Shown piece by piece: positions 4,185 to 25,308 of a stretch of DNA of 37,292 nt. The notes under the pieces were generated by a model. That model was not told the DNA's origin, did not search any database, and saw only the letters and a program-made list of their open reading frames with translations. A program made the translations under genes and the position numbers. Positions within the stretch are counted from its first letter, which is position 1; every line of letters begins with the position of its first letter. The stretch is from a virus: positions 1-37,292 of the IMG/VR virus record IMGVR_UViG_3300006947_000033. One strand, written 5' to 3'.

Positions 4185-4216
4185 AGTACCCTATTGAGAT
4201 GAGAGAGTTATTAGTT

Positions 4217-4705
4217 ATGTTAGTTGAAGCGATCCAGTTTGCCACCGAGATGCACAAAAGTCAGGTACGAAAGTATACTGGTGAAGCATATATCACCCAC
4301 CCTGTTGCCGTTGCTGATCTTGTTGAAGAGTATATGAATGCCAATGGTTACAGCGAAGATGAGATCATGGATGCCATGACCATCGCCGTCTTGCACGATA
4401 CTGTCGAAGACACCGAAGCAACCGAGGAAGACATCTTCCAGATGTACGGTGCTGATATTGCCACTGGTGTTTGGTTCTTGACTAAGTGTCCTGACTATGT
4501 AGGTAACAGACGTATTCGTAAGAAGATCTGCGAAGACCGTCTTGCTCGTGCTCCAGAAATTATTAAAATCATTAAGACATTTGATATGTACCACAACAGT
4601 CTAACCTTGGAAAGAGATGACCCTAAGTTCTACAAGGTCTTCATGGTCGAGACTGTCAGTTTGTTGAGCGCAATGAACACTACTGAAATCTTTCCGAAGA
4701 AGTAA
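4217..4705 (+). CDS. HD-domain hydrolase, SpoT/MESH1-like (putative alarmone hydrolase)
   Basis: A 162-aa protein that is essentially one RelA/SpoT-type HD hydrolase domain. Visible motifs: H13-x-x-Q-x-R-K with Y25-x-x-H28-P (first metal ligand region), H60-D61 followed by E64-D65, and D123 with H126-N127 in place of the usual D-R-x-H-N. The synthetase and TGS/ACT domains of long Rel proteins are absent, so by homology it would cleave the 3' pyrophosphate of (p)ppGpp or the phosphate of a related nucleotide. GAGAG at 4203-4207 favours the start at 4217 over an in-frame ATG at 4199. It has its own promoter, P3. Confidence 0.85.
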   Translation: MLVEAIQFATEMHKSQVRKYTGEAYITHPVAVADLVEEYMNANGYSEDEIMDAMTIAVLHDTVEDTEATEEDIFQMYGADIATGVWFLTKCPDYVGNRRIRKKICEDRLARAPEIIKIIKTFDMYHNSLTLERDDPKFYKVFMVETVSLLSAMNTTEIFPKK

Positions 4706-9354: not shown

Positions 9355-9651
9355 ATGAAGTCATTTAAGACACATCTTGAAGAATCCACTAAAGTAAAGT
9401 GGAATAAAGTTGCTGACGGATACGTGAATAAAAGGATGGTGTACAAACACGTTACTTCTGATGGTATGTATCAAATACGTATATCTGGTGCTGATTCTAT
9501 GAAATTTAATAAAGATGGCAGTCAGAAAGTGATGCCTACAGTCTTTGATATGCATCCAGCATCATATAGTCCAAGATACCCTGTTAGCGGTTATAAGAAT
9601 GTTACTATAGCGAAAGCAGAAGTTGAAAGGTGGATTGCTGATCATGAATAA
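9355..9651 (+). CDS. small protein with capsid-targeting-like leader
   Basis: A 98-aa protein beginning MKSFKTHLEES, the first of a series in this block whose start resembles the T4 internal-protein leader (MKTYQEFIAE-type); this one is a weaker match. GAGAG precedes the ATG. The rest is a small basic alpha/beta domain (WNKVADGYVNKRMVYKHVTSDGMYQIRISG) ending in a helix. It overlaps the next gene. It could be a minor head protein (inference); no family recognised. Confidence 0.68.
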   Translation: MKSFKTHLEESTKVKWNKVADGYVNKRMVYKHVTSDGMYQIRISGADSMKFNKDGSQKVMPTVFDMHPASYSPRYPVSGYKNVTIAKAEVERWIADHE

Positions 9652-10873
9652 TTTTAAAGAGTTCATTACAGAAGCGGCACAAAAGAACACCCATATGACT
9701 CACATCGAAGATAAGGTCATCTACGGTGGTGCTAATGGAACTCGTCAAGCAATCAATGCTCTTCGTGAGTTAAGAGATATGCTTGGCGGTAAGAAAGAAG
9801 GTTCTGTATCAGTCAAGTGGGACGGTGCGCCAGCAGTATTTGCCGGTACTGATCCCTCTGACGGTAAGTTCTTTGTTGCTAAGAAAGGCATCTTCAATAA
9901 GAATCCAAAGATATACAAGACTGATGCTGACATCGATGACGATACATCTGGTGATCTCAATGACAAACTAAAACTTGCATTGAAGTACTTACCTGAACTT
10001 GGTATTAAAGGAGTCATTCAAGGCGACTTTCTATACAAGCGTTCTGAACTAAAGAAGAAGAAGATCGGCACAGAAACATATCTTACCTTTCACCCTAACA
10101 CAATCGTGTATGCAGTACCCGTAAAACAATCTAAAGAACTACTTGCTTCTAAAATAGGCATTGTATGGCACACTACATATACAGGTAGTTCTTTTGAAAC
10201 TATGAGCGCATCATATGGTGTTGATGTAAACAAAATGAAAAAGTCAACGAACGTCTGGTCACAGGATGCTATATTGCGTGATGTGTCTAATGCTACGATG
10301 ACTAAAAAAGAAACGGATGAAGTAAATGAAACTCTATCACAAATTGGCAAACTTTTTAACCAAATCTCTGGAAGCACTCTTCGAGTATTATCCTCTAACC
10401 CAGGACTTGCACAGACAATCGAGACCTTTAATAACACCTACGTTAGACGAGGAGAAGTTATTGGAGACTCCAAAAAGCACGCCGAAAAACTCATCGCCTA
10501 CATCAACCAAAAGTACCAAAAAGAAATCGACAAGCGTAGCACCGAAAAAGGCAAAGGCGCCCAAAAAGCGAAGCGCGACGAAATCCTCAAGTTCTTCAGC
10601 AAAGAAAACAAAATAAGTCTCATTAAGATGTTTGAATTGCAGAAATTGATTGTTTTAGTTAAATTAAAACTTATAAATAACCTTAATAGATTAAGTAATA
10701 TTGGTGCGTTTGTTAAAACTAAGAACGGATACAAGACTACTGGTCAAGAAGGTTATGTTGCAATAGACACACTTGGTGGTGATGCGGTGAAATTGGTTGA
10801 TCGTATGGAGTTTTCATACAACAACTTTTCACCTGATATATTAAAAGGATGGGATAAACCAAAAGGTAAATAA
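9644..10873 (+). CDS. ligase-like nucleotidyltransferase with capsid-targeting-like leader (DUF6267-like)
   Basis: A 409-aa protein. The frame is open from 9623, but the ATG at 9644 gives the leader MNNFKEFITE-AA, nearly identical to T4 internal-protein leaders. Downstream, V-K58-W-D-G61 resembles motif I (KxDG) of ATP-dependent RNA/DNA ligases, with K58 as candidate adenylated lysine. GVIQGDFLY (about 129-137) fits the later E/Q-G-[ED] motif, followed by FHPNTIVYAV. I recall such proteins as DUF6267 in T4-like marine phages. The C-terminal third is Lys-rich and helical. Bases about 10440-10610 use many C-ending codons, unlike the AT-rich stretch right after. Ligase activity is inferred from motifs only. 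Confidence 0.78.
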   Translation: MNNFKEFITEAAQKNTHMTHIEDKVIYGGANGTRQAINALRELRDMLGGKKEGSVSVKWDGAPAVFAGTDPSDGKFFVAKKGIFNKNPKIYKTDADIDDDTSGDLNDKLKLALKYLPELGIKGVIQGDFLYKRSELKKKKIGTETYLTFHPNTIVYAVPVKQSKELLASKIGIVWHTTYTGSSFETMSASYGVDVNKMKKSTNVWSQDAILRDVSNATMTKKETDEVNETLSQIGKLFNQISGSTLRVLSSNPGLAQTIETFNNTYVRRGEVIGDSKKHAEKLIAYINQKYQKEIDKRSTEKGKGAQKAKRDEILKFFSKENKISLIKMFELQKLIVLVKLKLINNLNRLSNIGAFVKTKNGYKTTGQEGYVAIDTLGGDAVKLVDRMEFSYNNFSPDILKGWDKPKGK

Positions 10874-10874
10874 G

Positions 10875-11309
10875 ATGGCAGATAAACCATTATCGTTTAA
10901 AGACTTTTTAACAGTTGACTACAGTCAGACTGGTGAAAGAGTACAAGCGACAAACGCTAAACAGCGTAAAGAAACCGACGAAGCACTTGACTTTCAACAG
11001 AGACGTGCCCGCGGTCGTTCGATGAAAAAGAACAAAGCAAAGATAGCGATGGGTCGTAGACGTGCCGCTAAGAAAACTGCTAGTCAAGATGTCCTTAAGA
11101 AACGTGCCCGTAAAGGCGCGATCAATCAACTATTCAAAAAATTCGCAAAGGGCACTTCACGTTCTGAGTTGCCAGCATCTCGGCGCCAAGAGATCGAGAA
11201 GCGTATCGAGAAGATGAAATCCAAAGTGAATATGATTGCACGTAAGAACTTACCTGCTATTCGCAAATTAGAGAAAGATCGCCGACAGGGTGGAAATACT
11301 CCAAAATGA
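10875..11309 (+). CDS. very basic conserved phage protein (SFKDFL leader)
   Basis: A 144-aa protein, very rich in Arg and Lys. It begins MADKPLSFKDFLTVDYSQTG; LSFKDFL resembles the aromatic-Lys-x-Phe core of the leaders on neighbouring genes. The body is a run of basic helices (QQRRARGRSMKKNKAKIAMG, KKRARKGAINQLFKKFAKG, EKRIEKMKSKV). Homologues are familiar from T4-like cyanophages but lack a function. A DNA-binding head-interior protein is a reasonable inference, because T4 packs basic internal proteins with its DNA. It overlaps the next gene by ATGA. Confidence 0.75.
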   Translation: MADKPLSFKDFLTVDYSQTGERVQATNAKQRKETDEALDFQQRRARGRSMKKNKAKIAMGRRRAAKKTASQDVLKKRARKGAINQLFKKFAKGTSRSELPASRRQEIEKRIEKMKSKVNMIARKNLPAIRKLEKDRRQGGNTPK

Positions 11310-12553
11310 TTCCTTCCTTTAAACAGTATCTCGTAGAAGAGAACCGTGAAGTGTTCTTCACATTCGGTCGTATGAATCCTCCTACGATCGGACACGGCAA
11401 ACTACTGTCAGTACTATCCACTAAAGCGGGCAAGAATCCCTGGTTCGCTTATGTCTCACAATCACAAAACGCAAAGAAAGATCCCTTAACCTACGACCAG
11501 AAAGTGAAGCACGTTCGCAAGATGTTTCCTAAGTTTGGTCGTAATGTAATGCTTGATAAGAAAGTACGTACAGTGTTTGATATTGCTGTAATACTATTCG
11601 ATCAAGGTTTCAATCGCATTACAATGGTTGTTGGTTCGGATCGTGTAACAGAATTTAAGACTCTCCTTGACAAGTACAATGGTGAGAAAGCGCGACATGG
11701 TTTCTACAACTTCGAAAAGATTATGGTTGTCTCTGCTGGTGAACGAGATCCTGATGCCGAAGGCGTTGAAGGAATGTCTGCATCCAAGCAACGCGAGAAT
11801 GCCAAGAACAATGATTTCGCATCATTCTCTCAAGGCGTTCCTAAGTCGATGAATGCGAGAGATGCAAAGCGTCTGTTCAATGATGTTCGCGGTGGGATGG
11901 GACTCAAAGAAACAACTACATTTAGAAATCACATTGAACTTGAATCAGTCTCAGAGACACGAGAGAAATTCATTCAAGGTGAGTTATTCAATCTTACTGA
12001 CAAAGTTATTATCAGCGAGTCAGGTAAGTCGGGATACATTCAGACTATTGGTACTAACTATGTTATCGTAGCATTAGATGAAGGTGGCATTACTCGTCAA
12101 TGGATAGAATCAGTTGAGTTAGCAGAAGTACCAACAGGTCAGATGATCGATAAGATTAAAGCATCTACTGTATCTAAGAAGCGATATCAGGCAGCACTTA
12201 AAGTACTAAAAGATGTTGTTGCTCGTAAGAAGAAAGAAGCGAATGGTAAACCCATGCGTCACGGTATCGAATACTACGCTGGACAAATCGCTAAACAATA
12301 TGATATTAATTCTCGGGTTCTTGCTACTATGCATGAGACTAATGTTCCTGGATGGGGAACACCAGAAGCAACTAAGAAAGCGAAGAAGTTTGTTCCTGGT
12401 CAGAATGAAGCGAAGGGCGACGAAGTTTCCTTAGCAAAAGATACTATCGACCAAGAACTTCAGACAGACAAGATTAAACATGACCGTATTCTTGATCGTG
12501 CGAGATTAAACCGCGCTAGACGCAAGAATAAACAAACAAATCCAAAAGTATAA
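11306..12553 (+). CDS. cytidylyl/adenylyltransferase-like enzyme with capsid-targeting-like leader
   Basis: A 415-aa protein. The leader MIPSFKQYLVEEN resembles the T4 capsid-targeting sequence. A Rossmann nucleotidyltransferase domain follows: GRMNPPT27-x-G-H30 (the phosphate-binding T-x-G-H motif), VVGSD (108-112) and M-S-A-S-K-Q-R (157-163), equivalent to the I-S-S-T-x-x-R signature. This is the NMNAT/cytidylyltransferase superfamily, so it would join an NTP to a phosphate- or ribonucleotide-type substrate. A small beta domain (SGYIQTIGTNYVIVALDEGG, 241-260) and a helical basic C-terminal part follow. Substrate unknown; NMN is one possibility. Confidence 0.8.
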   Translation: MIPSFKQYLVEENREVFFTFGRMNPPTIGHGKLLSVLSTKAGKNPWFAYVSQSQNAKKDPLTYDQKVKHVRKMFPKFGRNVMLDKKVRTVFDIAVILFDQGFNRITMVVGSDRVTEFKTLLDKYNGEKARHGFYNFEKIMVVSAGERDPDAEGVEGMSASKQRENAKNNDFASFSQGVPKSMNARDAKRLFNDVRGGMGLKETTTFRNHIELESVSETREKFIQGELFNLTDKVIISESGKSGYIQTIGTNYVIVALDEGGITRQWIESVELAEVPTGQMIDKIKASTVSKKRYQAALKVLKDVVARKKKEANGKPMRHGIEYYAGQIAKQYDINSRVLATMHETNVPGWGTPEATKKAKKFVPGQNEAKGDEVSLAKDTIDQELQTDKIKHDRILDRARLNRARRKNKQTNPKV

Positions 12554-12562
12554 ATAGGACAT

Positions 12563-13612
12563 ATGAAAACATTTAATGCGCTATCAGAAGAAGTAACTCA
12601 AAAGCAACTCAATGATGTTGAGAAGTTTGCGGATCGTATTCTCGCCAAGTTTAATGTAGACATTGAATTTACTCGGCATTTTGCTGATCGTATGAATGAT
12701 GCTCGAAACAAACCCGCAGTTAGTGTTGCGGAGTTACAGCAGATATTTAAGAAGATTGCAAGAAAGAAAGCAAAGGATATTCGACAGAATCCTGATAGCG
12801 AAGCAGTCATAAAAGATATTCAAAAAGACTTGAACTTGCCTGTGGTTATAAGTTATAATAAGAACAAAGAAGAGTTCGAGGTTATAACTAAGACTATTAT
12901 GCGTAAAAAAGATTTCAAGACCACAAGTAAAGTAATTACTACGGAAGCAAAAAAAATGAAAGATGACCCCTGTTGGAAAGATTACGAGATGGTTGGCACT
13001 AAGAAGAAGAATGGTAAAGAAGTGCCTAACTGTGTACCCAAAGAAGATATATCCTCAGAGTCAACTAAGGAATATGGTAAGTCGATGTCCGCAATTGCTC
13101 GAAGACGCCAACAGGCAGCAATGAAACCTGGTGAGATGGACAAGTTAAAGCGTCTTAAAGATATGATGAAGAATGCTAATAAGAAAGAATCTGTTGACGA
13201 GGTCAAGAAACCAGTATCACAGATGACTCCTGCCGAGAAGAAAGCAGATGCAGAGAGACGCAAAGAATACAAGGCGCATCAGAAGTCAAAGCATGAGTCG
13301 GTTGTCCTAGAGTCAACTATTGAAGAAGCAGTACAAGATTGGAAAGTTACAGTTACAAAACCAATCAATAAGTTAAAGAAAGGCGCATCACAATCGGTTA
13401 AAGCACGTTCTGCATTCGAAGCAATTAACAAAGCAATAAAACTGTGGGGCGATCCTGCCCTTAAAGCGGCACCAGCAAGTTCGTTTAGTGTTGCTAAAGA
13501 TAAGTTTCCCACTAACACTAGTGCTACCCAAGGTAAGCGAATGGGAGAGAGGGAGTCTGTCGAAGAAAAGAAAGATTTCTTTAAGTTCCGCGAGACAATG
13601 AACAAGTCGTGA
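12563..13612 (+). CDS. putative head-interior protein, DUF4258-like N-terminal domain
   Basis: A 349-aa protein conserved in kind among T4-like cyanophages. It begins MKTFNALSEEVTQ, a weak leader match. Residues 15-120 contain FTRHFADRMNDARNKP (36-51) and a strand pair before KTIMRKKDF, a pattern like DUF4258/RelE-type small domains. A second motif, DPCWKDYEMVGTKKK...VPNCVP with C137 and C157, is a short module I have seen in several phage proteins. The remainder is charged and disordered-looking, with repeated E-S-V blocks (209-211, 245-247, 331-333). A role in the prohead core or as packaged protein is inferred from context. Confidence 0.7.
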   Translation: MKTFNALSEEVTQKQLNDVEKFADRILAKFNVDIEFTRHFADRMNDARNKPAVSVAELQQIFKKIARKKAKDIRQNPDSEAVIKDIQKDLNLPVVISYNKNKEEFEVITKTIMRKKDFKTTSKVITTEAKKMKDDPCWKDYEMVGTKKKNGKEVPNCVPKEDISSESTKEYGKSMSAIARRRQQAAMKPGEMDKLKRLKDMMKNANKKESVDEVKKPVSQMTPAEKKADAERRKEYKAHQKSKHESVVLESTIEEAVQDWKVTVTKPINKLKKGASQSVKARSAFEAINKAIKLWGDPALKAAPASSFSVAKDKFPTNTSATQGKRMGERESVEEKKDFFKFRETMNKS

Positions 13613-14385
13613 AAAAATTTAAATCATTTATAGCAGAAGCATATCAGCAATTCTTGGATAAGTCACCTAGTAACTGGGGTGAGGATAAGGTAGTCGCTTA
13701 CGGAACCAAGAAAGGTCACAAAGTGATCGGTGTATGTGGTCACGGTAGGGTAGAAGGTATTGTACTGTTCGGTCTGGATGCTGGCGACAAGAAGTATGTC
13801 GGTAAGGAAGCAAAGGTCAAGACTGGTCAAACAGTATTCCGTTATGCTACTCGTAATAGTATGGCAGGTGACATCTTTCCTTTAGTTAAGATTGACGTTA
13901 AACGTGGTCTACTATATAACCTGTCACAGAAATCGATTGATGGTGAGATTGAACACGCAGAGTTTGAGAGCAAAAGTGTTAAGTTGCGTTATCTGCGTCT
14001 TGCCGCAACTGCGAATATTAGTGGCATTACTGGATTCGATCCCGGATTCGGTTCAATGAAAGAATCTGTAGACCTTGATGAAGATTATACATGTGAAGAA
14101 CTAGAGATCACAGAAGCAGAATATCAGGGTAAATCAGTTACACTAAATAATCCCTTTAGACTGCCTTCTGGTAATAAGAAGAAGTTTGGCGTATACGTTA
14201 CCAATAAGAAAGGTAATATAGTTAAAGTTACGTTTGGTGATCCTAACATGGAGATCAAACGTGATGATCCCGAAAGACGAAAGTCCTTCAGAGCGCGGCA
14301 CAATTGTGCTGATAAGAAAGATAAAACCACTCCGGGTTATTGGAGTTGCTATCAATGGAGGGCATCTGCGAAAGTAGATAACTAG
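13609..14385 (+). CDS. putative packaged protein with capsid-targeting leader and Cys-rich C-terminal module
   Basis: A 258-aa protein with GTG start in a GTGA overlap. The leader MKKFKSFIAE-AY is close to the T4 internal-protein leader; gp21-type cleavage would fall after E10. Residues 20-140 form an uncharacterised domain. I167-T-E169-A is a second possible prohead-protease site. The C-terminal module (171-258) contains KKFGVYVTNKKGNIVKVTFGD and P-E-R-R-K-S-F-R-A-R-H-N-C233 followed by Y-W-S-C247, a widespread module in T4-like phages of unknown function. It may be cut into two pieces in the head (inference). Confidence 0.75.
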   Translation: MKKFKSFIAEAYQQFLDKSPSNWGEDKVVAYGTKKGHKVIGVCGHGRVEGIVLFGLDAGDKKYVGKEAKVKTGQTVFRYATRNSMAGDIFPLVKIDVKRGLLYNLSQKSIDGEIEHAEFESKSVKLRYLRLAATANISGITGFDPGFGSMKESVDLDEDYTCEELEITEAEYQGKSVTLNNPFRLPSGNKKKFGVYVTNKKGNIVKVTFGDPNMEIKRDDPERRKSFRARHNCADKKDKTTPGYWSCYQWRASAKVDN

Positions 14386-14390
14386 ATTGT

Positions 14391-14690
14391 ATGGGAAATA
14401 TGACAAACGCAGATCGACTAGGCAGAATAGAGGACAAGATTGACCAAATGTCCGAAGCAATCATCTCACTCGCAAGAGTGCAGGAGAAAGTATCGGACTT
14501 GGAGAATCGAAGAGCGGAGCAACACGAACGTATGAATCAACACTCTAAGAAATTAGATGACATAGATATTAAAGTCACTACGTTGATGGAAAAAGTAAAC
14601 AACATACAGATGGTGGGACTCGCGGCAGGCGGTCTGATAGCAACAATTTTTTTAGCACTACTAACTGGGCAGATAGTAATCGGCCAATAA
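14391..14690 (+). CDS. coiled-coil protein with C-terminal membrane anchor
   Basis: A 99-aa protein. Residues 4-72 are one long charged heptad-patterned helix (ADRLGRIEDKIDQM, LDDIDIKVTTLMEKV). Residues 74-97 form a single hydrophobic segment (MVGLAAGGLIATIFLALLTGQIV). This layout resembles XhlA-like or other phage membrane-attached coiled-coil proteins involved in lysis or membrane contact. ATG codons at 14391 and 14400 are both possible; neither has a clear ribosome-binding site. Specific role unknown. Confidence 0.68.
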   Translation: MGNMTNADRLGRIEDKIDQMSEAIISLARVQEKVSDLENRRAEQHERMNQHSKKLDDIDIKVTTLMEKVNNIQMVGLAAGGLIATIFLALLTGQIVIGQ

Positions 14691-14708
14691 ACGCAACTGG
14701 AGAACAAA

Positions 14709-15728
14709 ATGAATCCCGAGTACATTAAAAATATCGCCCAACTATGGCAAGACGTACAAGAAGGCGAAAAGAAGAAATTAGATCCCGTAGATGATAAAGC
14801 GAACGATAAGAAGTTCGTTAATCGTAAAGACAAAGACATTGACAACGATGGTGATGTTGATTCGTCTGATGAGTTTTTGCACAAGAGACGTAAAGCAATC
14901 GACAACAAGAAAGACGGTGGAGAGAAACCGGCGACGAATGAAGCGCGTCAGATGAAAGATCCTAAGAAAGATTCTATGGTCACTAAGAACGGCAAGACTA
15001 TAGTAGTTGATAAGTCTAAGGAAGCAGAATACCTCAAGAAAGGTTGGATTATATCAGAAACACAAGAATCTTGTGGCGATGATAAGAAGATGAAGAAAGA
15101 GTCGGACGAAGATATGACTCCTTGTCCTGATTGCGAAGGTTCTACTGATAATCACGATCCTGAATGTCCTAAAGCAGACACAGGTAAAAAGGAAGTAGAA
15201 GAAGGCAGAGTGAAAGATCAGTTGATTAAAGATTCCGAGAAGATGTCTAAGAAAGACTTCATTAAGAAGTACGGAAAAGAAATGGCAGATGATCTTTATG
15301 AAGCAAAGGAATATTCTAACACTGTTACTCATGCTTATCATGGTTACGGTGAAATTCTGCAACGTACTGATGAAGGCATAGATGTTATGTTTGAACATGG
15401 CGTTGAAATGGGTATGAGCGAAGCAACTCTAACATTCCTAGAGACTGTTGCCGCTACTACACTAGCAAAGAAAGCAACTCAAGTTGCTGGCGGTGGAGAG
15501 AAGACTGGACAAAATGCTTCTAAAGGCGAGAAAGAATTTGCTGATAAGCATGACAAAGATGATCCAAAGTTAGCGGCAGATGATGCTGATGGACACGAAG
15601 ATGCTACTAAAGCAGGACGTGCAGTTAAGTCTCAGTCTGGTACTCGTGGTAACGAACCTCGTATCGGCGACAAGACTATTGTAAATCCTGTTAAGGGTGC
15701 TGTAACTAAAACTACTGGTAAGGAATAA
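14709..15728 (+). CDS. acidic/charged head-core-like protein with calcium-loop motif
   Basis: A 339-aa, highly charged, low-complexity protein. D43-x-D45-x-D47-G-D49-V-D51-x-x-D54 is a good EF-hand/dockerin-type calcium loop, followed by the basic FLHKRRKAI helix. Similar DNDG...SRD/KRR loops recur in cyanophage structural proteins. C139-P-D-C142 with H149 and C153 could bind zinc. L196-Y-E198-A fits a prohead-protease site. The C-terminal 90 residues are Lys/Asp/Gly-rich and probably disordered. A GGAG ribosome-binding site precedes the start. It may be a scaffold or internal core protein; this is inferred from composition and neighbours. Confidence 0.68.
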   Translation: MNPEYIKNIAQLWQDVQEGEKKKLDPVDDKANDKKFVNRKDKDIDNDGDVDSSDEFLHKRRKAIDNKKDGGEKPATNEARQMKDPKKDSMVTKNGKTIVVDKSKEAEYLKKGWIISETQESCGDDKKMKKESDEDMTPCPDCEGSTDNHDPECPKADTGKKEVEEGRVKDQLIKDSEKMSKKDFIKKYGKEMADDLYEAKEYSNTVTHAYHGYGEILQRTDEGIDVMFEHGVEMGMSEATLTFLETVAATTLAKKATQVAGGGEKTGQNASKGEKEFADKHDKDDPKLAADDADGHEDATKAGRAVKSQSGTRGNEPRIGDKTIVNPVKGAVTKTTGKE

Positions 15729-15732
15729 GATT

Positions 15733-15996
15733 ATGCCTATTAGAGGTCCTAAGAATGCTACCCCAACTCCAATCGGTTGGGTTTCACCAAAAGGCGAATT
15801 GCTAAAGAGTCAACGTATTACTTCTCAGCAAATCGCAGAGTTTCGTGGCGATGTTCCAACAACTGCAACTCAGTTAAACGAAGCACCTGTTCACCAGACT
15901 TCATTGGGTGCTATGACAGATGTGGAACTAGAAGTAACTTCACTGCATTATGATATCGACTTGTCTTCGGGTATCACCGAAGAGTTAGAAGATTAA
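15733..15996 (+). CDS. small putative structural protein
   Basis: An 87-aa protein beginning MPIRGPKNATPTPIGW-SPKGELLKSQ. This Pro-rich G-W-x-x-P-x-G-E-L-L pattern I recall from short proteins of T4-like marine phages. The C-terminal half is acidic. It sits between two probable structural genes and is not membrane-bound. Function unknown. Confidence 0.62.
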   Translation: MPIRGPKNATPTPIGWVSPKGELLKSQRITSQQIAEFRGDVPTTATQLNEAPVHQTSLGAMTDVELEVTSLHYDIDLSSGITEELED

Positions 15997-15997
15997 T

Positions 15998-16315
15998 ATG
16001 TCAGAAGAACTAGATAAGATCCATCATCCTGCTGATACCAACGGTGATGGAAAGGTATCAAAAGAAGAAGAAGCAATGTACTTAGAGTTTAAACGTAAAG
16101 AACTCGACGATGCTGATGCTATGCGAGACGCGCAACGTAAGATGGCGTGGTTCGCATTGTTCGGTATGTTGTTATATCCCTTTGCTGTTGTACTTGCTTC
16201 TCTATTAGGTATCGATACAGCGGCGAAGACTTTAGGTGATATGGCGCCTACTTACTTTGTATCTGTATCATTAATTGTTGGTGCTTTCTTTGGCGCTCAG
16301 GCACTGAAGAAATAG
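15998..16315 (+). CDS. EF-hand membrane protein
   Basis: A 105-aa protein. A canonical EF-hand loop lies at D13-x-N15-x-D17-G-x-V20-x-x-x-E24, followed by the acidic helix EEEAMYLEFKRKELDDAD. Two hydrophobic helices follow at about 49-70 and 84-101, with APTYFVSVS between them. Very similar proteins are common in T4-like cyanophages. Calcium sensing or calcium-dependent assembly at the membrane or virion is an inference. Ends just before an inverted repeat. Confidence 0.8.
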   Translation: MSEELDKIHHPADTNGDGKVSKEEEAMYLEFKRKELDDADAMRDAQRKMAWFALFGMLLYPFAVVLASLLGIDTAAKTLGDMAPTYFVSVSLIVGAFFGAQALKK

Positions 16316-16316
16316 A

Positions 16317-16345
16317 AGTCTATATACTATACCAACATATAGACT
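16317..16345 (+). repeat. 8-bp inverted repeat
   Basis: AGTCTATA (16317-16324) and TATAGACT (16338-16345) form a perfect eight-base-pair stem with a 13-base loop. There is no T-tract; it could be an RNA-processing or mRNA-stability hairpin or a protein-binding site. Confidence 0.55.
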
Positions 16346-16354
16346 ATAGCAAAT

Positions 16355-16723
16355 ATGAAACTTTTTGAAACACTAGATGAATCTACGTTCCTGATCTTCT
16401 CAGCAAAGAATTATTACAATCCTACTTGTATCGATGCTGAGGAGTTCTACGAAGATATAAAACGATTTAAGTATATCAAGCGTCTATTGAACAGACATCT
16501 TGATGGTGGTAAACTGTCAGTGAACTTGATATTAAATCATCTCATTGTTGTATTCAATGTGTTTGGTAATGATCCAGGTTTAAAGATGCTAGAGTACAAG
16601 TTAGATGACCGTCACTGGTCATCAATCAAACCATTCCTTGTATATCTAAGAGTAATAACAAACGAAACATATACGGGCATTGAAATGGATGCGCGTGTTA
16701 TCGAAGAGTTGAGAAAGATATGA
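16355..16723 (+). CDS. conserved T4-like phage protein
   Basis: A 122-aa protein beginning MKLFETLDEST. Residues 27-50 (AEEFYEDIKRFKYIKRLLNRHL) and the following LSVNLILNHLIVVFNVFG stretch match a small conserved family in T4-like cyanophages (from memory). All-helical by eye and soluble. It overlaps the next gene by ATGA, and those two genes are likely partners. Function unknown. Confidence 0.7.
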   Translation: MKLFETLDESTFLIFSAKNYYNPTCIDAEEFYEDIKRFKYIKRLLNRHLDGGKLSVNLILNHLIVVFNVFGNDPGLKMLEYKLDDRHWSSIKPFLVYLRVITNETYTGIEMDARVIEELRKI

Positions 16724-17307
16724 GTTTAGCAAGTAAAGCGGGTGATCTGCTCTATACGTTTAGATTCTTGAAGATGTTGACTACACCTTGGGATGAGACT
16801 GATGCATTTAAATTAGGTCTTATTGATGAGAAAGGTAAGCGAATCAAGAGCGAGAAAGTCGATTCATCTGACAAGAAAACCGCGTTAGGTCCTTTCGTTC
16901 GTCTCGTGTTTAATGTCAAAAGAGCAATAGGCAAGATACCTGGTGGCAAGACTACTTTAGGTTCTTATGCGGCAGCACTCTTTCTACTCAAAGAACATTA
17001 TAGTGTCGGTGAGAATAATCTAACAAGAATATGTGTCGAAGCGGGTATTGATCCACTTGATATGATAGCAGAAGACCATGCTTGGTACGTACTTGAGAAC
17101 AACCAATTAGCACCAGGAATATATCGCGTAAAGGGTGATAAACTTCTTGGCGAAGGACTCGAAGATGCAGTTCGTGCTAAAGACCAAATTCGTATACTTG
17201 ACGAATCATTTCCAGTCGGTGATGTGTTCGGCATGAACGTGTATGAAGCAATGCACCTAACTACTAACAAGATGGTGTATATCACACTAGGAGAAATCTA
17301 CAAATGA
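16720..17307 (+). CDS. conserved T4-like phage protein
   Basis: A 195-aa protein. The N-terminal part (DLLYTFRFLKMLTTPWDETDAFKLGLIDEKG) and RLVFNVKRAIGKIPGGKTTLGSYAAALFLLKE are highly recognisable from uncharacterised proteins of T4-like marine phages. The C-terminal part looks beta-rich (VFGMNVYEAMHLTTNKMVYITLGEIY). It overlaps genes on both sides. A virion or assembly role is likely from position but cannot be specified. Confidence 0.72.
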   Translation: MSLASKAGDLLYTFRFLKMLTTPWDETDAFKLGLIDEKGKRIKSEKVDSSDKKTALGPFVRLVFNVKRAIGKIPGGKTTLGSYAAALFLLKEHYSVGENNLTRICVEAGIDPLDMIAEDHAWYVLENNQLAPGIYRVKGDKLLGEGLEDAVRAKDQIRILDESFPVGDVFGMNVYEAMHLTTNKMVYITLGEIYK

Positions 17308-17480
17308 AATCGTTCAAAGAATTTATGGTAGAAGAACCTACAGTCTCCACTGGTCCCGGTATCGCAGGCACAAGTCCTGGTGATCCTGCTGACTGGACAT
17401 ACGGAAAGAAGAAAAAGCGTAAACCCCTAACTCGTTCTTTTATAGAGATAATGGGCAAGCGTAAAAAACTTATCAAATAA
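17304..17480 (+). CDS. T4 internal-protein-like small basic protein
   Basis: A 58-aa protein whose leader MKSFKEFMVE is one of the best matches in the window to the T4 capsid-targeting sequence. Prohead-protease cleavage after E10 would release a peptide of about 48 residues with a Gly/Pro/Ser linker and a basic tail (YGKKKKRKPLTRSFIEIMGKRKK). Size, leader and charge are like T4 internal proteins. DNA binding inside the head and delivery to the host are inferences. It overlaps the previous gene by ATGA. Confidence 0.72.
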   Translation: MKSFKEFMVEEPTVSTGPGIAGTSPGDPADWTYGKKKKRKPLTRSFIEIMGKRKKLIK

Positions 17481-20724: not shown

Positions 20725-22368
20725 ATGAAACCCACTATAGCATTGTATGAGGGTCATGATACTAATCTAACAGTATATGACCCTAATACCGACTCGTTCT
20801 ACATATATGAATTTGAACGTGTTTCAGGTATTAAACACCACAACATAAAAAACCGTAAAGGTAGCAATGGTTTATCTACCAGCGCAAATGTTCAATATCT
20901 ACAGATTATTCTGAATCATCTTAAAGAAGTTCATGGCATTGAAAATGACTTCGACACATTTATCTTCAAACCCATTTGGTGGAATGTGTCATACATTGAC
21001 CGCAGTATTATCAATTCAGACAAAGAGATTTTACCAGTCATCGATCACCATGATGCTCATGCATGGTGTGCATATGGACAAGCACCTGAATCGTTCGAGA
21101 ACACTGCTTGTATAACTTATGATGGTTGGGGCGATAACACCGCATTCAAGTACTCGTGTTTCAAAGGCATCAATCGACATTCAGTTGAACCCATGTGTTA
21201 TAATTTCTCGATGGTCTACACTGCTATGGCACACTCTCTCAAGATATTACATGGTACTATGGATCTTGATCTCCCGGGTAAACTAATGGGATTATCTGCA
21301 TACGGTGAAGTGAATCGCACGTGGTCAGATATAATGAAAGATTCTATCAAATCAGACTGGTGGAAATATAAACTAAGCAATGAAGCAGGATCTAAACCAC
21401 CTGTCACCTGGGACGACTCACAAAATCCATTACTTGTGATGAGAAAACAGATCAATCCGTGTATTCAGACAACTGATTATAACATAAAACTAGAGAACAC
21501 TAAAGCATTCGCACTCGCTAGTTCTGCGCAGATTGCATTCGAAGAAGGTATCGTCGAAACTATTAAAGAAGAGTTCCTTGATAAGATTGAAGCGCACGAT
21601 AACAATCTGATAATATCTGGCGGTAGTGCATTAAATGTTCTTGCTAACGAAGCAATCAAACGTGCATTTCCTGATGTCAACATATACATCCCACCAAACT
21701 GTCATGATGGCGGTCTAAGTTTTGGTATGTTATACGAACATCTAAAGACTACTAAGAAATACGATGTCACTCAATCTGGTCCAAGAATATTTGATTACAA
21801 ATATATGGATCCGATGATTAAACTATACGGCGCAAAGAAAGTCAGTATTAATGATATTGCAGACTTACTTAAAGAGCAGAAGATAATAGGGATGGTGATT
21901 GGTAACATGGAAGTAGGACCGAGAGCATTGGGTAATCGTTCTATACTATGTGACGCATCTAATCCTAAGATGAAAGACACCCTCAATTGTCGTGTTAAGT
22001 TCCGAGAGTGGTTTAGACCTTTCGCTCCTATATGCAGAAAGGAAGATGCACCTAAGTATTTCTACTCACCAAACTTTGATAACATGGAATGCATGCAATT
22101 CGTCGCGGATGTGTTGCCAGAGTATCAAACTAAACTATTCTCTGTAACACACTACGACAATACTGCCAGACTTCAGGTGGTGACGGAGGAGAGCAATGCT
22201 GCAATCTATGACATACTGACAGCGTTCGATGGAGTACTAATAAACACTTCCTTGAATGTTCAAGGTAAACCTATTCTAAATACCTTTGATGAAGCATTTC
22301 ATGTTTTACAACAGACAGGCCTAGACCATATAGTGGTAGAGTATGAAAATGATTATTGGTTATTCTAA
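20725..22368 (+). CDS. carbamoyltransferase, NodU/TobZ family (copy 1)
   Basis: A 547-aa carbamoyltransferase. The N-terminal Kae1-like half shows H11-D-T-N, the metal-binding H108-H109-D110-A-H112 and the D-G-W-G-D-N nucleotide loop (133-138). The C-terminal YrdC-like half contains the family block N-M-E-V-G-P-R-A-L-G-N-R-S-I and F-R-P-F-A-P. Family members make carbamoyl-AMP from carbamoyl phosphate and ATP and transfer the carbamoyl group to a hydroxyl. Phage relatives have been linked to carbamoylated hydroxymethylcytosine; sugars are the alternative substrate. A second copy lies at 22841. Confidence 0.92.
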   Translation: MKPTIALYEGHDTNLTVYDPNTDSFYIYEFERVSGIKHHNIKNRKGSNGLSTSANVQYLQIILNHLKEVHGIENDFDTFIFKPIWWNVSYIDRSIINSDKEILPVIDHHDAHAWCAYGQAPESFENTACITYDGWGDNTAFKYSCFKGINRHSVEPMCYNFSMVYTAMAHSLKILHGTMDLDLPGKLMGLSAYGEVNRTWSDIMKDSIKSDWWKYKLSNEAGSKPPVTWDDSQNPLLVMRKQINPCIQTTDYNIKLENTKAFALASSAQIAFEEGIVETIKEEFLDKIEAHDNNLIISGGSALNVLANEAIKRAFPDVNIYIPPNCHDGGLSFGMLYEHLKTTKKYDVTQSGPRIFDYKYMDPMIKLYGAKKVSINDIADLLKEQKIIGMVIGNMEVGPRALGNRSILCDASNPKMKDTLNCRVKFREWFRPFAPICRKEDAPKYFYSPNFDNMECMQFVADVLPEYQTKLFSVTHYDNTARLQVVTEESNAAIYDILTAFDGVLINTSLNVQGKPILNTFDEAFHVLQQTGLDHIVVEYENDYWLF

Positions 22369-22840: not shown

Positions 22841-24589
22841 ATGAGGAATCTAATCGCCGCTAATTGGGGTCATGACGCCTCACTATGTTTCTGGAATGAT
22901 GTTGCAAAAACATTTCATACTATTGAGATAGAAAAACTTGTAGGTATAAAACACTACAGAGGTCACGCACGTAAGGATGAAGAACTAGAGATTCTTAAAA
23001 GGTGTGCTAAGATAGCAGAAGAAGAGTTTGGCATACCCAACGACTATCACTGCATCATTCGTGGCAATCTATTGAACGATATCAAGAAAGAACAGATTGA
23101 AAATGGCACGGGTCGTTTGACAGATAATAAAGTTTCTGATGATATGATGCTCGATGTTGATAACATTAATGCTGTATTTAATACTAAGAATATTGATATT
23201 ACATATCGACATCATGAAGCACACGCATGGAATGGATTCGCTCCTTCGGGATTCGACAAAGCAGTCATACTTACTATGGATGGTGGTGGTAACGATGGGT
23301 TCACTCATTTGTTCACTGCTGAAAATCCTAATAAACCTCTGACAAGTCATACACGAATACATGGAGTTCAAGCGCATGGCAGAAACTATACTCAGGCATG
23401 CCTATGGTCGTTATACAGTATAATGCAAAGCACCGACTGTTCGTTAGATGTTGCGGGTAAAGCAATGGGAGCATCGTCGTACGGAAACACTGAAAGCGAT
23501 CCCTATTCGACTGCAACGAAACTGTTTATGAGAAGTACGACCGCTTGGAATAACTTTAGTCCTGGCAGAATGCTGTACGAGAAACATTACAACCAAACTT
23601 TGAAAGACGGTACTAACAGTAAGATTAAGTTTATCGAAGCGTTTAGTACTTCGCCTGAAGTGTACAATCCCTATAAACTATTTGTGGATGAGATTGATTG
23701 GCAAACAGAATGTGATATGGCAAGAGGCATTCAAGATGCGTTTGTTAAAGATGCTATAAAATGGTTCAAAGAGATTATGAGGGTTAGAAACGTAAACCTA
23801 GATGACTACGACAGAAATGTGGTGTTCTCTGGTGGTAGTGCGTTAAATGTGCTGTTCAATGATATACTACAGCGAGAGATGAATATCAATCTATTCGTAC
23901 CGCCTAATCCAGCAGACCAAGGAATTCCCTACGGTATGCTAGTGCAATGGATGGTCGATCATGCTACACAATACTCGCGTGAAGAAACTACGTACTCTGG
24001 TCAAAAGATACAAGACATGGAGGACTTACAGAAATATTATCATTCACACAAAGGCAGAATGACAACTATTGCAGATGTAGCAAGCATACTGAAAGATGAT
24101 AAGATTGTCGGACTCGTGCAAGGTGGCATGGAAGTAGGTGCGAGAGCGTTAGGCAATCGTTCTATACTTGCTGATCCAAAGGGCGCAGATAAGAAAGACA
24201 AAGTTAATGCAGTAAAGAGACGCGAAGCATACCGTCCGTTCGCGCCAGTATGTAGATTAGAAGATGTAGAGACTTACTTTGACTCAGTTCGTTATGACAA
24301 TCTATCTTATATGAATTTTGCGATAAAGACTCGTGAAGAACATATAGATAAGTTAAGAGCAGTTACTCATGTTGATGGGACAGCAAGAGTACAGACAGTT
24401 ACTAAAGAACAGAATACAATACTACATGATTTATTAAGTGAATTTGATGGTGTATTATTGAACACTTCTTTCAATGTGAAAGGATCTCCAATACTAAATA
24501 CACTTAAAGAAGCGTTCTATATGCTTGACGAAACCACACTCGATCATCTGGTAGTAGTAGATGAACATAACACAATATGGATTTTTTAA
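22841..24589 (+). CDS. carbamoyltransferase, NodU/TobZ family (copy 2)
   Basis: A 582-aa paralogue of the protein at 20725. It keeps G-H11-D-A-S, H124-H125-E126-A-H128 (Glu instead of Asp) and M-D-G-G-G-N-D-G (147-154), with the YrdC-like half marked by G-G-M-E-V-G-A-R-A-L-G-N-R-S-I and Y-R-P-F-A-P. It is longer by 35 residues and clearly diverged, so the two copies may use different acceptors. No good ribosome-binding site is visible; translation may depend on the upstream gene, three bases away. Reaction as for copy 1. Confidence 0.92.
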   Translation: MRNLIAANWGHDASLCFWNDVAKTFHTIEIEKLVGIKHYRGHARKDEELEILKRCAKIAEEEFGIPNDYHCIIRGNLLNDIKKEQIENGTGRLTDNKVSDDMMLDVDNINAVFNTKNIDITYRHHEAHAWNGFAPSGFDKAVILTMDGGGNDGFTHLFTAENPNKPLTSHTRIHGVQAHGRNYTQACLWSLYSIMQSTDCSLDVAGKAMGASSYGNTESDPYSTATKLFMRSTTAWNNFSPGRMLYEKHYNQTLKDGTNSKIKFIEAFSTSPEVYNPYKLFVDEIDWQTECDMARGIQDAFVKDAIKWFKEIMRVRNVNLDDYDRNVVFSGGSALNVLFNDILQREMNINLFVPPNPADQGIPYGMLVQWMVDHATQYSREETTYSGQKIQDMEDLQKYYHSHKGRMTTIADVASILKDDKIVGLVQGGMEVGARALGNRSILADPKGADKKDKVNAVKRREAYRPFAPVCRLEDVETYFDSVRYDNLSYMNFAIKTREEHIDKLRAVTHVDGTARVQTVTKEQNTILHDLLSEFDGVLLNTSFNVKGSPILNTLKEAFYMLDETTLDHLVVVDEHNTIWIF

Positions 24590-25308
24590 TGTTAAAATTT
24601 CAACAGTACATAAACGAACAAGCAATAATCGAACAAGCAGAACTAGACCTAATCAACGAAGGCGTAAATGATCCTGCAATCTTTAAAGCAGTGTTTCTTG
24701 CTGGTGGTCCTGGTAGTGGCAAGTCGTTCATTGTTGGCAAAACTGGATTAGGTAGTTTTGGATTTCGTGTAGTCAACTCTGATGATGCATTTGAAAACTC
24801 TATGAAGAAAGCAGGCATGGAGATGAATCCGGATAACATCTTCTCTGTTAAAGGACAAGAACTACGTGGTAAAGCAACTAAGTTGACTGCCGCTAAACAA
24901 GAGATGTATCTTAAAGGTCGTCTCGGTATTGTTATTGATGGAACTGGTAAAGACTCTGCTAAGATTAAAGCGCAAAGAGCAAAACTAGAGAAGATGGGAT
25001 ATGATACTGCACTGATTCTAGTTAATACAAATATCGACACCGCTGTTGATCGTGACGCACAACGTAAACGCTCTATTGGTAAGAAGATGCTTACCCCGAT
25101 GTGGCAGGCAGTGCAAGATAATATTGGAACATACCAGCAAATGTTTGGTCAAGAGAATACCTTTATCGTAGATAACAGCAAAGGCAAAGACTTCACAAAA
25201 GAAACTATGGCAGCGTACAAGGGTATTGGAGCGTGGTCCAAGAAACCAGTTAAAGATTCTCGTGCTAAGAAGTGGATTAAATCCGAGTTGAAAAATAAGA
25301 CTAGATAA
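24589..25308 (+). CDS. P-loop kinase (zeta-toxin/polynucleotide-kinase-like) with capsid-targeting-like leader
   Basis: A 239-aa protein. The frame is open from 24577, but the TAATG overlap with the carbamoyltransferase stop gives start 24589 and the leader MLKFQQYINE, another capsid-targeting-like sequence. The Walker A loop is G39-G-P-G-S-G-K45-S46. V-I-D-G-T-G (about 115-120) acts as the acidic strand, and the Arg-rich D-R-D-A-Q-R-K-R-S-I-G-K-K stretch looks like a lid. This fits the P-loop kinase group with zeta-toxin-like, chloramphenicol-phosphotransferase-like and polynucleotide kinase members. Substrate unknown. The leader suggests head packaging although the gene lies 7 kb from the head block. 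Confidence 0.82.
   Translation: MLKFQQYINEQAIIEQAELDLINEGVNDPAIFKAVFLAGGPGSGKSFIVGKTGLGSFGFRVVNSDDAFENSMKKAGMEMNPDNIFSVKGQELRGKATKLTAAKQEMYLKGRLGIVIDGTGKDSAKIKAQRAKLEKMGYDTALILVNTNIDTAVDRDAQRKRSIGKKMLTPMWQAVQDNIGTYQQMFGQENTFIVDNSKGKDFTKETMAAYKGIGAWSKKPVKDSRAKKWIKSELKNKTR

Follow-up and report, generated by a model that had tools for sequence, protein, structure and literature searches.

In phage T4, the internal proteins IPI, IPII and IPIII enter the head by means of a short N-terminal capsid targeting sequence, in which positions 4 and 7 of IPIII are known to function in targeting and positions 8 and 10 in processing (PMC9026906). Giant phages such as SPN3US and the phiKZ relatives carry a bolus of head proteins, enzymes among them, whose N-terminal propeptides are cut by a gp21-type protease (PMC5694885, PMC10052503), and head-packaged NAD/ADP-ribose enzymes of myoviruses (Alt, MuF fusions) have been proposed to be carried in the head and injected (PMC9503650). 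Enzymes have also been found repeatedly in cyanophage virions, including NMNAT-like proteins, a SAM hydrolase, an APH-like kinase and the Cas9-annotated nuclease of S-CREM2 (PMC10665884, PMC9602691, PMC3037559, PMC9146016), without an account of how they get there. Here we describe a leader of the T4 type on several unrelated proteins of a marine phage (IMG/VR record IMGVR_UViG_3300006947_000033, positions 1 to 37,292; hereafter 'the window', the whole 37,292-nt stretch analysed), and suggest that this phage probably carries a kit of enzymes in its particle and delivers them with its DNA. We found no paper on this leader in marine phages in the one open-licence library searched (papers consulted there include PMC9964418).

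The leader is strong on six proteins of the window, all on the + strand. A regex scan of 1164 start positions on both strands gave seven matches, comprising these six and position 23660, an internal GTG of a carbamoyltransferase gene that we take as chance. The first (9355..9651) is a 98-aa protein with no PHROG or Pfam match, whose first 30 bases encode MKSFKTHLEE, followed by Ser (matrix score 23.7, see below; 5 of 7 orthologues score 7 or more). The second (9644..10873) is a DUF6267 protein (PF19782, E 7.7e-103) with the leader MNNFKEFITE followed by Ala, and 143 of 149 orthologues have a leader. Its body is ligase-like in that K58 W59 D60 G61 is invariant in 60 sequences; however, ligases reached at most Z 6.7 and were tied with unrelated helical chains, there was no Foldseek match at E 0.001 or better, and no convincing PDB sequence match. 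The third (11306..12553) is an NMNAT/NadD-like nucleotidylyltransferase (Foldseek E 4.1e-5, probability 1.00 to NadD, also matching PPAT) with a GRMNPPTIGH stretch in which T27, G29 and H30 are invariant. Its leader is MIPSFKQYLVE, followed by Glu, and 132 of 152 orthologues, which were found without a leader pattern, also have a leader. The fourth (13609..14385) is a two-domain protein with a GTG start, the leader MKKFKSFIAE followed by Ala (score 25.3), and a second possible site, ITE before Ala, at residue 169 ahead of the phrog_7595 domain. Only 1 of 21 orthologues of its first domain scores 7 or more, however, and several have MKTIKELMTEA, with Ile/Leu in place of the aromatics. The fifth (17304..17480) is a 58-aa basic protein with MKSFKEFMVE followed by Glu (score 21.5; leader in 10 of 10 orthologues). 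The sixth (24589..25308, within an ORF whose longest form starts at 24577) is a P-loop kinase (Zeta_toxin PF06414, E 9.2e-8; AAA_33 PF13671, E 5.6e-7) with MLKFQQYINE followed by Gln, a second site, LINE before Gly, at residue 24, a score of 22.1, and 45 of 53 orthologues scoring 7 or more. These orthologue counts take the best-scoring start of each ORF, which favours leaders.

A first-pass annotation of the sequence had proposed a T4 internal-protein-like leader on a cargo of enzymes and basic proteins between 9355 and 17480, and this interpretation is supported, although individual calls require correction. The kinase at 24589 lies outside that interval and was missed, while 9355, listed as weak, is a strong case. 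The protein at 10875..11309 (+), also listed as weak, is basic (net charge +28 in 144 aa) and bears only the targeting half of the leader, SFKDFLTV, with both aromatics but Val in place of Glu; 69 of its 114 orthologues nonetheless have a scoring leader, for example MLSFKQFVSE in phage C48C1. The 349-aa lysine-rich protein at 12563..13612 (+) has a borderline and doubtful leader, MKTFNALSEE, which scores 3.1 in the 99% relatives (our sequences L018/L019), although 23 of 38 orthologues score 7 or more. The proposed leader at 16355 is not a leader: 0 of 63 orthologues score, and the Pfam domain DUF7207 begins at residue 4. The suggestion that several start codons only make sense with the leader holds for 13609, and for C48C1, in which the GenBank cytidyltransferase start (L002:20067; L numbers are our sequence handles) leaves out a leader that begins at GTG 20001. 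Of the two T4 forms that the annotation had given, MKTYQEFITE was not seen: IPII and IPIII both read MKTYQEFIAE, and IPI reads MKTFKEFTSTTTPVSTITEA.

To test the resemblance to T4 we built a position matrix from 31 leader groups on viral contigs, with no T4 sequence in it. This matrix ranks IPIII, IPII and IPI as the top 3 of 203 ORFs in 49 kb of T4. Within the window, 6 of 182 ORFs score 10 or more, while shuffled N termini give on average 0.23 of 776 starts, and at most 2 in 300 shuffles; because window proteins were in the training set this number is partly circular, whereas the transfers to T4 and S-CREM2 are not. In a larger set, 301 of 20,653 + strand N termini were counted against 8.6 in shuffles. 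The training groups were drawn from 40, of which nine (S7, which corresponds to the internal start at 23660, S17, S24, S33 and S35-S39) were set aside by eye as chance, short, antisense or badly aligned. The 31 kept are not all unrelated, as a looser clustering gave 29 families, about 22 after dropping the chance-like ones, and some kept groups share PHROGs (S5 and S6, phrog_1462). Leave-one-family-out gave 30 of 31 with a median of 6 or more, but since the groups had been picked by a regex this too is partly circular, and the adenylate-kinase group S23 falls to 3.4 when left out of training, such that its leader is doubtful. Some other high scores were taken as chance or not followed: C48C1 L006:30405 (11.1) and L005:24455 (11.0, an internal start), S-SCSM1 L013:27799 (9.5) and Melnitz L003:47154 (7.8).

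Association of the leader with the virion could be assessed in relatives for which mass spectrometry has been published. In cyanophage S-CREM2, the top 5 of 219 N termini are all proteins detected in the virion (52 of 219 detected), and 0 of 167 undetected proteins score 6 or more (P = 6.5e-4, or 1.6e-5 against the 26 detected non-structural proteins); four of the five have no homologue in the training set. Three of the five lie in a grey zone (8.4, 8.1, 6.5), however, and by the simple regex the contrast is weaker, at 4 of 52 against 1 of 167 (P = 0.012), with ORF175 matching the regex but undetected. The label 'Cas9' of S-CREM2 ORF12 was not confirmed, as Pfam gave no family, and its leader-like stretch has its first Phe at residue 19 with a CTG codon at residue 17, so it may not be an N terminus. 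NMNAT-like enzymes have been reported in virions of S-SM1, S-CREM2, S-SCSM1 and S-SZBM1, and all four start with the leader followed by Ala. On the other hand, S-SCSM1 ORF30 and S-SZBM1_191 and _192 have strong leaders but are not tagged or listed as virion proteins, marginal scores (7.0 and 7.5) occur on the S-SZBM1 CP12 and sliding clamp, neither of which is listed in its virion, and a DNA helicase of C48C1 starts MKDYSHFMVEA. An alternative is that the leader is an amphipathic N-terminal peptide for another place in the cell, and that the proteins only co-purify with virions; indeed, the S-CREM2 authors themselves allow incomplete separation in CsCl (PMC10665884). We consider this very unlikely, given that leader and detection go together and that the leader ends in the cleavage form of major capsid proteins.

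Conservation within the leader is position-specific. Among 60 DUF6267 proteins, entropy is low at positions 4, 8 and 10, moderate at 7, and high at 2, 3, 5 and 6, matching the functional residues of T4 IPIII; Phe occurs at position 4 in 54 of 60, Phe/Tyr/His at position 7 in 57 of 60, Ile/Leu at position 8 in 59 of 60, and Glu at position 10 in 59 of 60. Maturation sites of major capsid proteins likewise read F/L-[ILM]-x-E. The leader lies outside the fold in structural models, with a pLDDT under 50 in the DUF6267 protein. Less consistent with T4, the residue following Glu is Gln in 83 of 128 DUF6267 leaders and Glu in 115 of 122 enzyme leaders, rather than the Ala seen in T4. It might be argued that the leaders are alike only because a 5' gene segment was copied between genes by recombination, with no function of its own, as T4 IPII and IPIII have identical leaders and such segments could spread. 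This seems highly improbable: codons vary, Phe/Tyr/His or Ile/Leu interchange at the conserved positions, the six window leaders are 47-70% alike in DNA and their upstream 20 bases 10-45%, and only positions 4, 7, 8, 9 and 10 are held in DUF6267. A DNA or RNA element as the cause was rejected on the DNA comparison. Late-promoter support was also lacking, since TATAAATA occurs 3 times against 2.6 expected, although one copy at 12549 lies just upstream of 12563.

We consider with good confidence that these N termini are a T4-type capsid targeting sequence used on a broad enzyme cargo. We infer that aromatic residues at positions 4 and 7 dock the protein on the prohead core during assembly, that a gp21-type prohead protease likely recognizes [I/L/M]-x-E at the end of the leader and cuts after the Glu to leave the mature protein in the head, and that the tagged proteins (an NMNAT-like nucleotidylyltransferase, a ligase-like DUF6267 protein, a P-loop kinase and small basic proteins) leave with the DNA into the next host, where the enzymes would be used at the start of infection. 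Support for packaging comes from virion data for orthologues or other leader proteins in relatives rather than from this phage, and no leader-bearing DUF6267 phage has a virion proteome known to us. Neither gp21 nor gp22 was identified in the window, which is a fragment; both are present in C48C1, and gp21 is present on related contigs. Alternatively, the leader may dock proteins on the prohead core to serve head assembly or DNA condensation, rather than as an injected enzyme kit; several tagged proteins are small and very basic (10875, 17304), and T4 IPIII has a role in head morphogenesis (PMC9026906). This appears unlikely, because tagged bodies include enzyme folds (NadD-like, P-loop kinase, SAM lyase, ATP-grasp and HD_4) that scaffolding would not need.

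It is tempting to speculate, though the evidence makes this no more than a tentative possibility, that marine T4-like phages share one ten-residue address that makes the head a loading bay for an interchangeable kit of enzymes (NMNAT-like, ligase-like, P-loop kinase, SAM lyase, HD-domain, ATP-grasp and perhaps a Cas9-annotated nuclease), delivered at time zero to rebuild NAD, repair nucleic acid ends and block restriction before any phage gene is expressed, and that gp21 itself enters the prohead through a copy of the same F-x-x-F/L-L docking motif at its C terminus. A short readable address would answer how enzymes come to be in cyanophage particles, and would allow the probable head cargo of a T4-like phage to be listed from its genome, with corrected start codons.

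The survey of head-packaged NAD/ADP-ribose enzymes in myoviruses (PMC9503650) argues from gene context and fusions, and by a term search NMNAT and cyanophage did not occur in its main text. The enzymes reported from cyanophage virions are orthologues or analogues of the cargo in the window, but no leader is mentioned in the portions of those papers that we consulted, and the S-CREM2 authors leave open packaging or co-purification. In the giant phages most propeptides are 111-254 residues long, with a few of 20-24, the protease motif differs, and there is no shared ten-residue tag. Among the closest known systems is that of the T4 internal proteins, which share the N-terminal signal and its key residues at positions 4, 7, 8 and 10; compact (IPIII) and split (IPI) forms both occur. 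T4, however, tags a few small proteins, whereas here the tag is on many protein groups, several with enzyme folds, and the residue after Glu is often Gln or Glu.

The genes of this 37,292-base virus record are those of a marine T4-like phage. The best protein match of the NMNAT-like enzyme encoded at 11306 is to Phage C48C1 (Kyanoviridae; 63% over residues 1-274), and a 116-kb IMG/VR contig is 99% identical at DUF6267. Similarity to Methylophilales phages Melnitz is also evident at the DNA level, where a D-rich repeat-like stretch (DKDIDNDGDVDSSDEFLHKRR) at 14709-15728 is conserved (84% over 90 bases); this stretch recurs in orthologues and in S-SM1 ORF191, but no leader was found (0 of 54). 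A regex scan of 1164 start positions on both strands identified the leader at 9355, 9644 (the DUF6267 protein), 11306, 13609 and 17304, as well as on a kinase at 24589 that lies outside the interval considered in the first-pass annotation; a seventh hit, at 23660, is an internal start. Two Nol-like carbamoyltransferase genes (20725-22368 and 22841-24589) lie close together just before the tagged kinase. Six of 182 window ORFs score 10 or more with the position matrix described below, while shuffles give 0.23 starts, although this comparison is partly circular because these genes were in the training set. Of the calls regarded as weak in the first-pass annotation, 9355 is strong, 10875 retains the aromatics but not the Glu, 12563 is borderline, and 16355 is wrong: 0 of 63 orthologues score, and its Pfam domain starts at residue 4.

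The leader is also more frequent than expected by chance among related viruses. On 288 related viral loci (3.28 Mb), 301 of 20,653 distinct + strand N termini (ATG or GTG) match [FY]-x-x-[FYHW]-[ILMV]-x-E two to five residues after the start, against 8.6 when residues 2-15 are shuffled; on the - strand there were 2 of 3,930 against 1.5. It is important to recognize that these contigs were found by homology to window proteins, in three of four searches with a leader peptide among the search patterns, and so the raw count is inflated. The search with 11306, however, used no leader pattern, and there 132 of 152 orthologues carry the leader. The corresponding counts for the other proteins are 143 of 149 for DUF6267, 45 of 53 for the kinase, 10 of 10 for 17304, 5 of 7 for 9355, 69 of 114 for 10875, 23 of 38 for 12563, and only 1 of 21 for the first domain of 13609. 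The leader-bearing bodies fall into 40 groups or, with looser linking, 29 families. Nine groups were set aside as chance and 31 were kept, some of which are related to each other, and some singletons may be chance.

To ask whether this is the same signal as that of T4, a position matrix was built from the 31 groups, each weighted once and with no T4 sequence included, and run over all ORFs in 49 kb of T4. The top three of 203 ORFs are IPIII, IPII and IPI (11.1, 11.1 and 7.2), followed by an internal start (6.3). Without the NMNAT group in training their scores are 11.4, 11.4 and 7.4.

The S-CREM2 virion proteome lists 52 proteins (PMC10665884). We translated and scored all 219 annotated S-CREM2 genes and compared the scores with detection in the particle. 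The five best are ORF154 (cytidylyltransferase, 21.2), ORF14 (APH-like kinase, 15.5), ORF6 (SAM lyase, 8.4; PF23780, E 2.3e-19), ORF13 (8.1) and ORF136 (6.5); all five were detected, the next protein scores 1.9, and none of the 167 undetected proteins reaches 6. The chance that five all fall among the 52 is 6.5e-4, or 1.6e-5 for the 26 detected non-structural proteins, and four of the five have no homologue in the training set. With the plain regex the contrast is weaker, at 4 of 52 against 1 of 167 (P = 0.012). The authors of that study allowed that such proteins may be carried in the virion or, alternatively, may not have been separated from it. Interestingly, ORF12 (7704-10313 on L008, the S-CREM2 locus), which is annotated as Cas9 and was detected in the virion but is not recognized by Pfam, has a leader-like stretch (16.2) with its first Phe at residue 19 and a CTG codon at residue 17.

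The NMNAT-like enzyme is reported from virions of S-SM1 (PMC3037559), S-CREM2, S-SCSM1 (PMC9602691) and S-SZBM1 (PMC9146016). All four begin with the leader and have Ala after the Glu: MKKFSAFLNE/A, MKNFSSFLTE/A, MKSFLQFLKE/A and MRFRQFIIE/A (a slash follows the Glu here and below). These were examined because the enzyme had been reported, and so they illustrate rather than test the association. P-TIM68 has MKSFTSFFTE/A (12.0), and S-BM3 only MKTLKFFLE (-1.1). In S-SZBM1 the DUF6267-like ORF141 has no leader and is not in the virion table. Against the model, S-SCSM1 ORF30 and S-SZBM1_191 and _192 have strong leaders (24.4, 24.5 and 26.6) and are not tagged or listed as virion proteins. S-SZBM1 CP12 (7.0) and sliding clamp (7.5) have marginal scores and are not listed either, so that scores of 6 to 8 constitute a grey zone. 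Similarly, a C48C1 DNA helicase (L004:19419, on a C48C1 locus), UvsW-like by position, starts MKDYSHFMVEA, a loose leader match on a probably cytoplasmic protein, whereas S-CREM2 UvsW has none. In addition, 48 S-SCSM1 genes bear a virion tag by our count while the paper reports 45 detected, and the S-SZBM1 text names a few structural proteins that its Table 1 does not.

Along 60 aligned DUF6267 proteins, entropy at leader positions 2 to 10 is 2.57, 2.54, 0.47, 2.77, 2.65, 1.51, 0.77, 1.15 and 0.12 bits. In T4 IPIII, suppressor studies placed targeting mainly at residues 4 and 7 and processing at residues 8 and 10, with Asp at 10 blocking the cut but not the targeting (PMC9026906). The low-entropy columns fit this assignment, with position 9 also fairly low. 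Codons vary synonymously, and Phe/Tyr/His or Ile/Leu interchange, so selection is on the peptide. AlphaFold gives residues 1-18 of DUF6267 a pLDDT under 50 and residues 1-10 of the 11306 protein a mean of 50, as for a flexible tag outside the fold.

The leaders also end in the same form as the maturation site of major capsid proteins. At the position of the T4 capsid-protein cut (FGSFLTE/A, residue 65), the major capsid proteins of C48C1, S-CREM2, S-SCSM1 and S-SZBM1 read GGFLTE/T, TGLLTE/A, GSFLAE/A and RGILTE/A, and 40 distinct major capsid protein N termini from contigs show [ILM]-x-E there, followed by A, T, D, V or N. The residue after Glu is Q in 83 of 128 DUF6267 leaders and E in 115 of 122 enzyme leaders, leaving the exact cut uncertain. 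Intriguingly, the prohead protease of C48C1 (gp21, L004:14633-15292) and gp21 of related loci (L306-L385) end in a conserved REFKNFLSLIKS tail that looks like the leader core. The 23 distinct C-terminal tails of 55 distinct gp21 proteins contain FKNFL (22) or YKNFL (1), but most come from 80 loci at 86-99% identity and so are not independent. The more distant gp21s of S-CREM2, S-SCSM1 and S-SZBM1 end in FHDLL, FNDFL and FHEFL, while T4 gp21 lacks the motif. That the protease docks on the core through the same motif is our inference.

Two arrangements of the leader were observed. Most leaders are compact, like that of IPIII, but some kinase orthologues have the aromatics first and a separate LQE/G or LDE/G before the domain, like IPI. 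The kinase at 24589 has a compact leader and a second LINE/G. The 13609 protein has an ITE/A before a domain that stands alone with its own leader in C48C1, as if two tagged proteins had fused.

Among the tagged proteins, 11306 has the NadD/PPAT fold and 24589 is a Zeta_toxin/AAA_33 kinase. DUF6267 has an invariant KWDG, which appears to have the form of ligase motif I, and many DNA and RNA ligases occur in its structural match list at Z up to 6.7, but these are tied with unrelated helical chains and so are suggestive only. Other tagged proteins include a DUF5824 protein, an adenylate kinase with a doubtful leader, a RimK ATP-grasp protein in Melnitz, and an HD_4 protein with leader MLNFKSHMNE on a related contig (L062:1574-2140), whereas the HD phosphohydrolase-type protein of the window (4199-4705) has no leader. 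Roles in NAD supply, nucleic acid repair and anti-restriction are guesses from these families.

Overall, the first-pass observation holds and its main interpretation, a leader like the capsid-targeting leader of T4 internal proteins, is supported, with one call removed, one doubtful and one gene added; cleavage after the Glu and injection into the host remain inferred. Although we found no description of this leader in marine phages in the literature searched, the device itself is known: what is seen here is probably a wider use of the T4 capsid targeting sequence.
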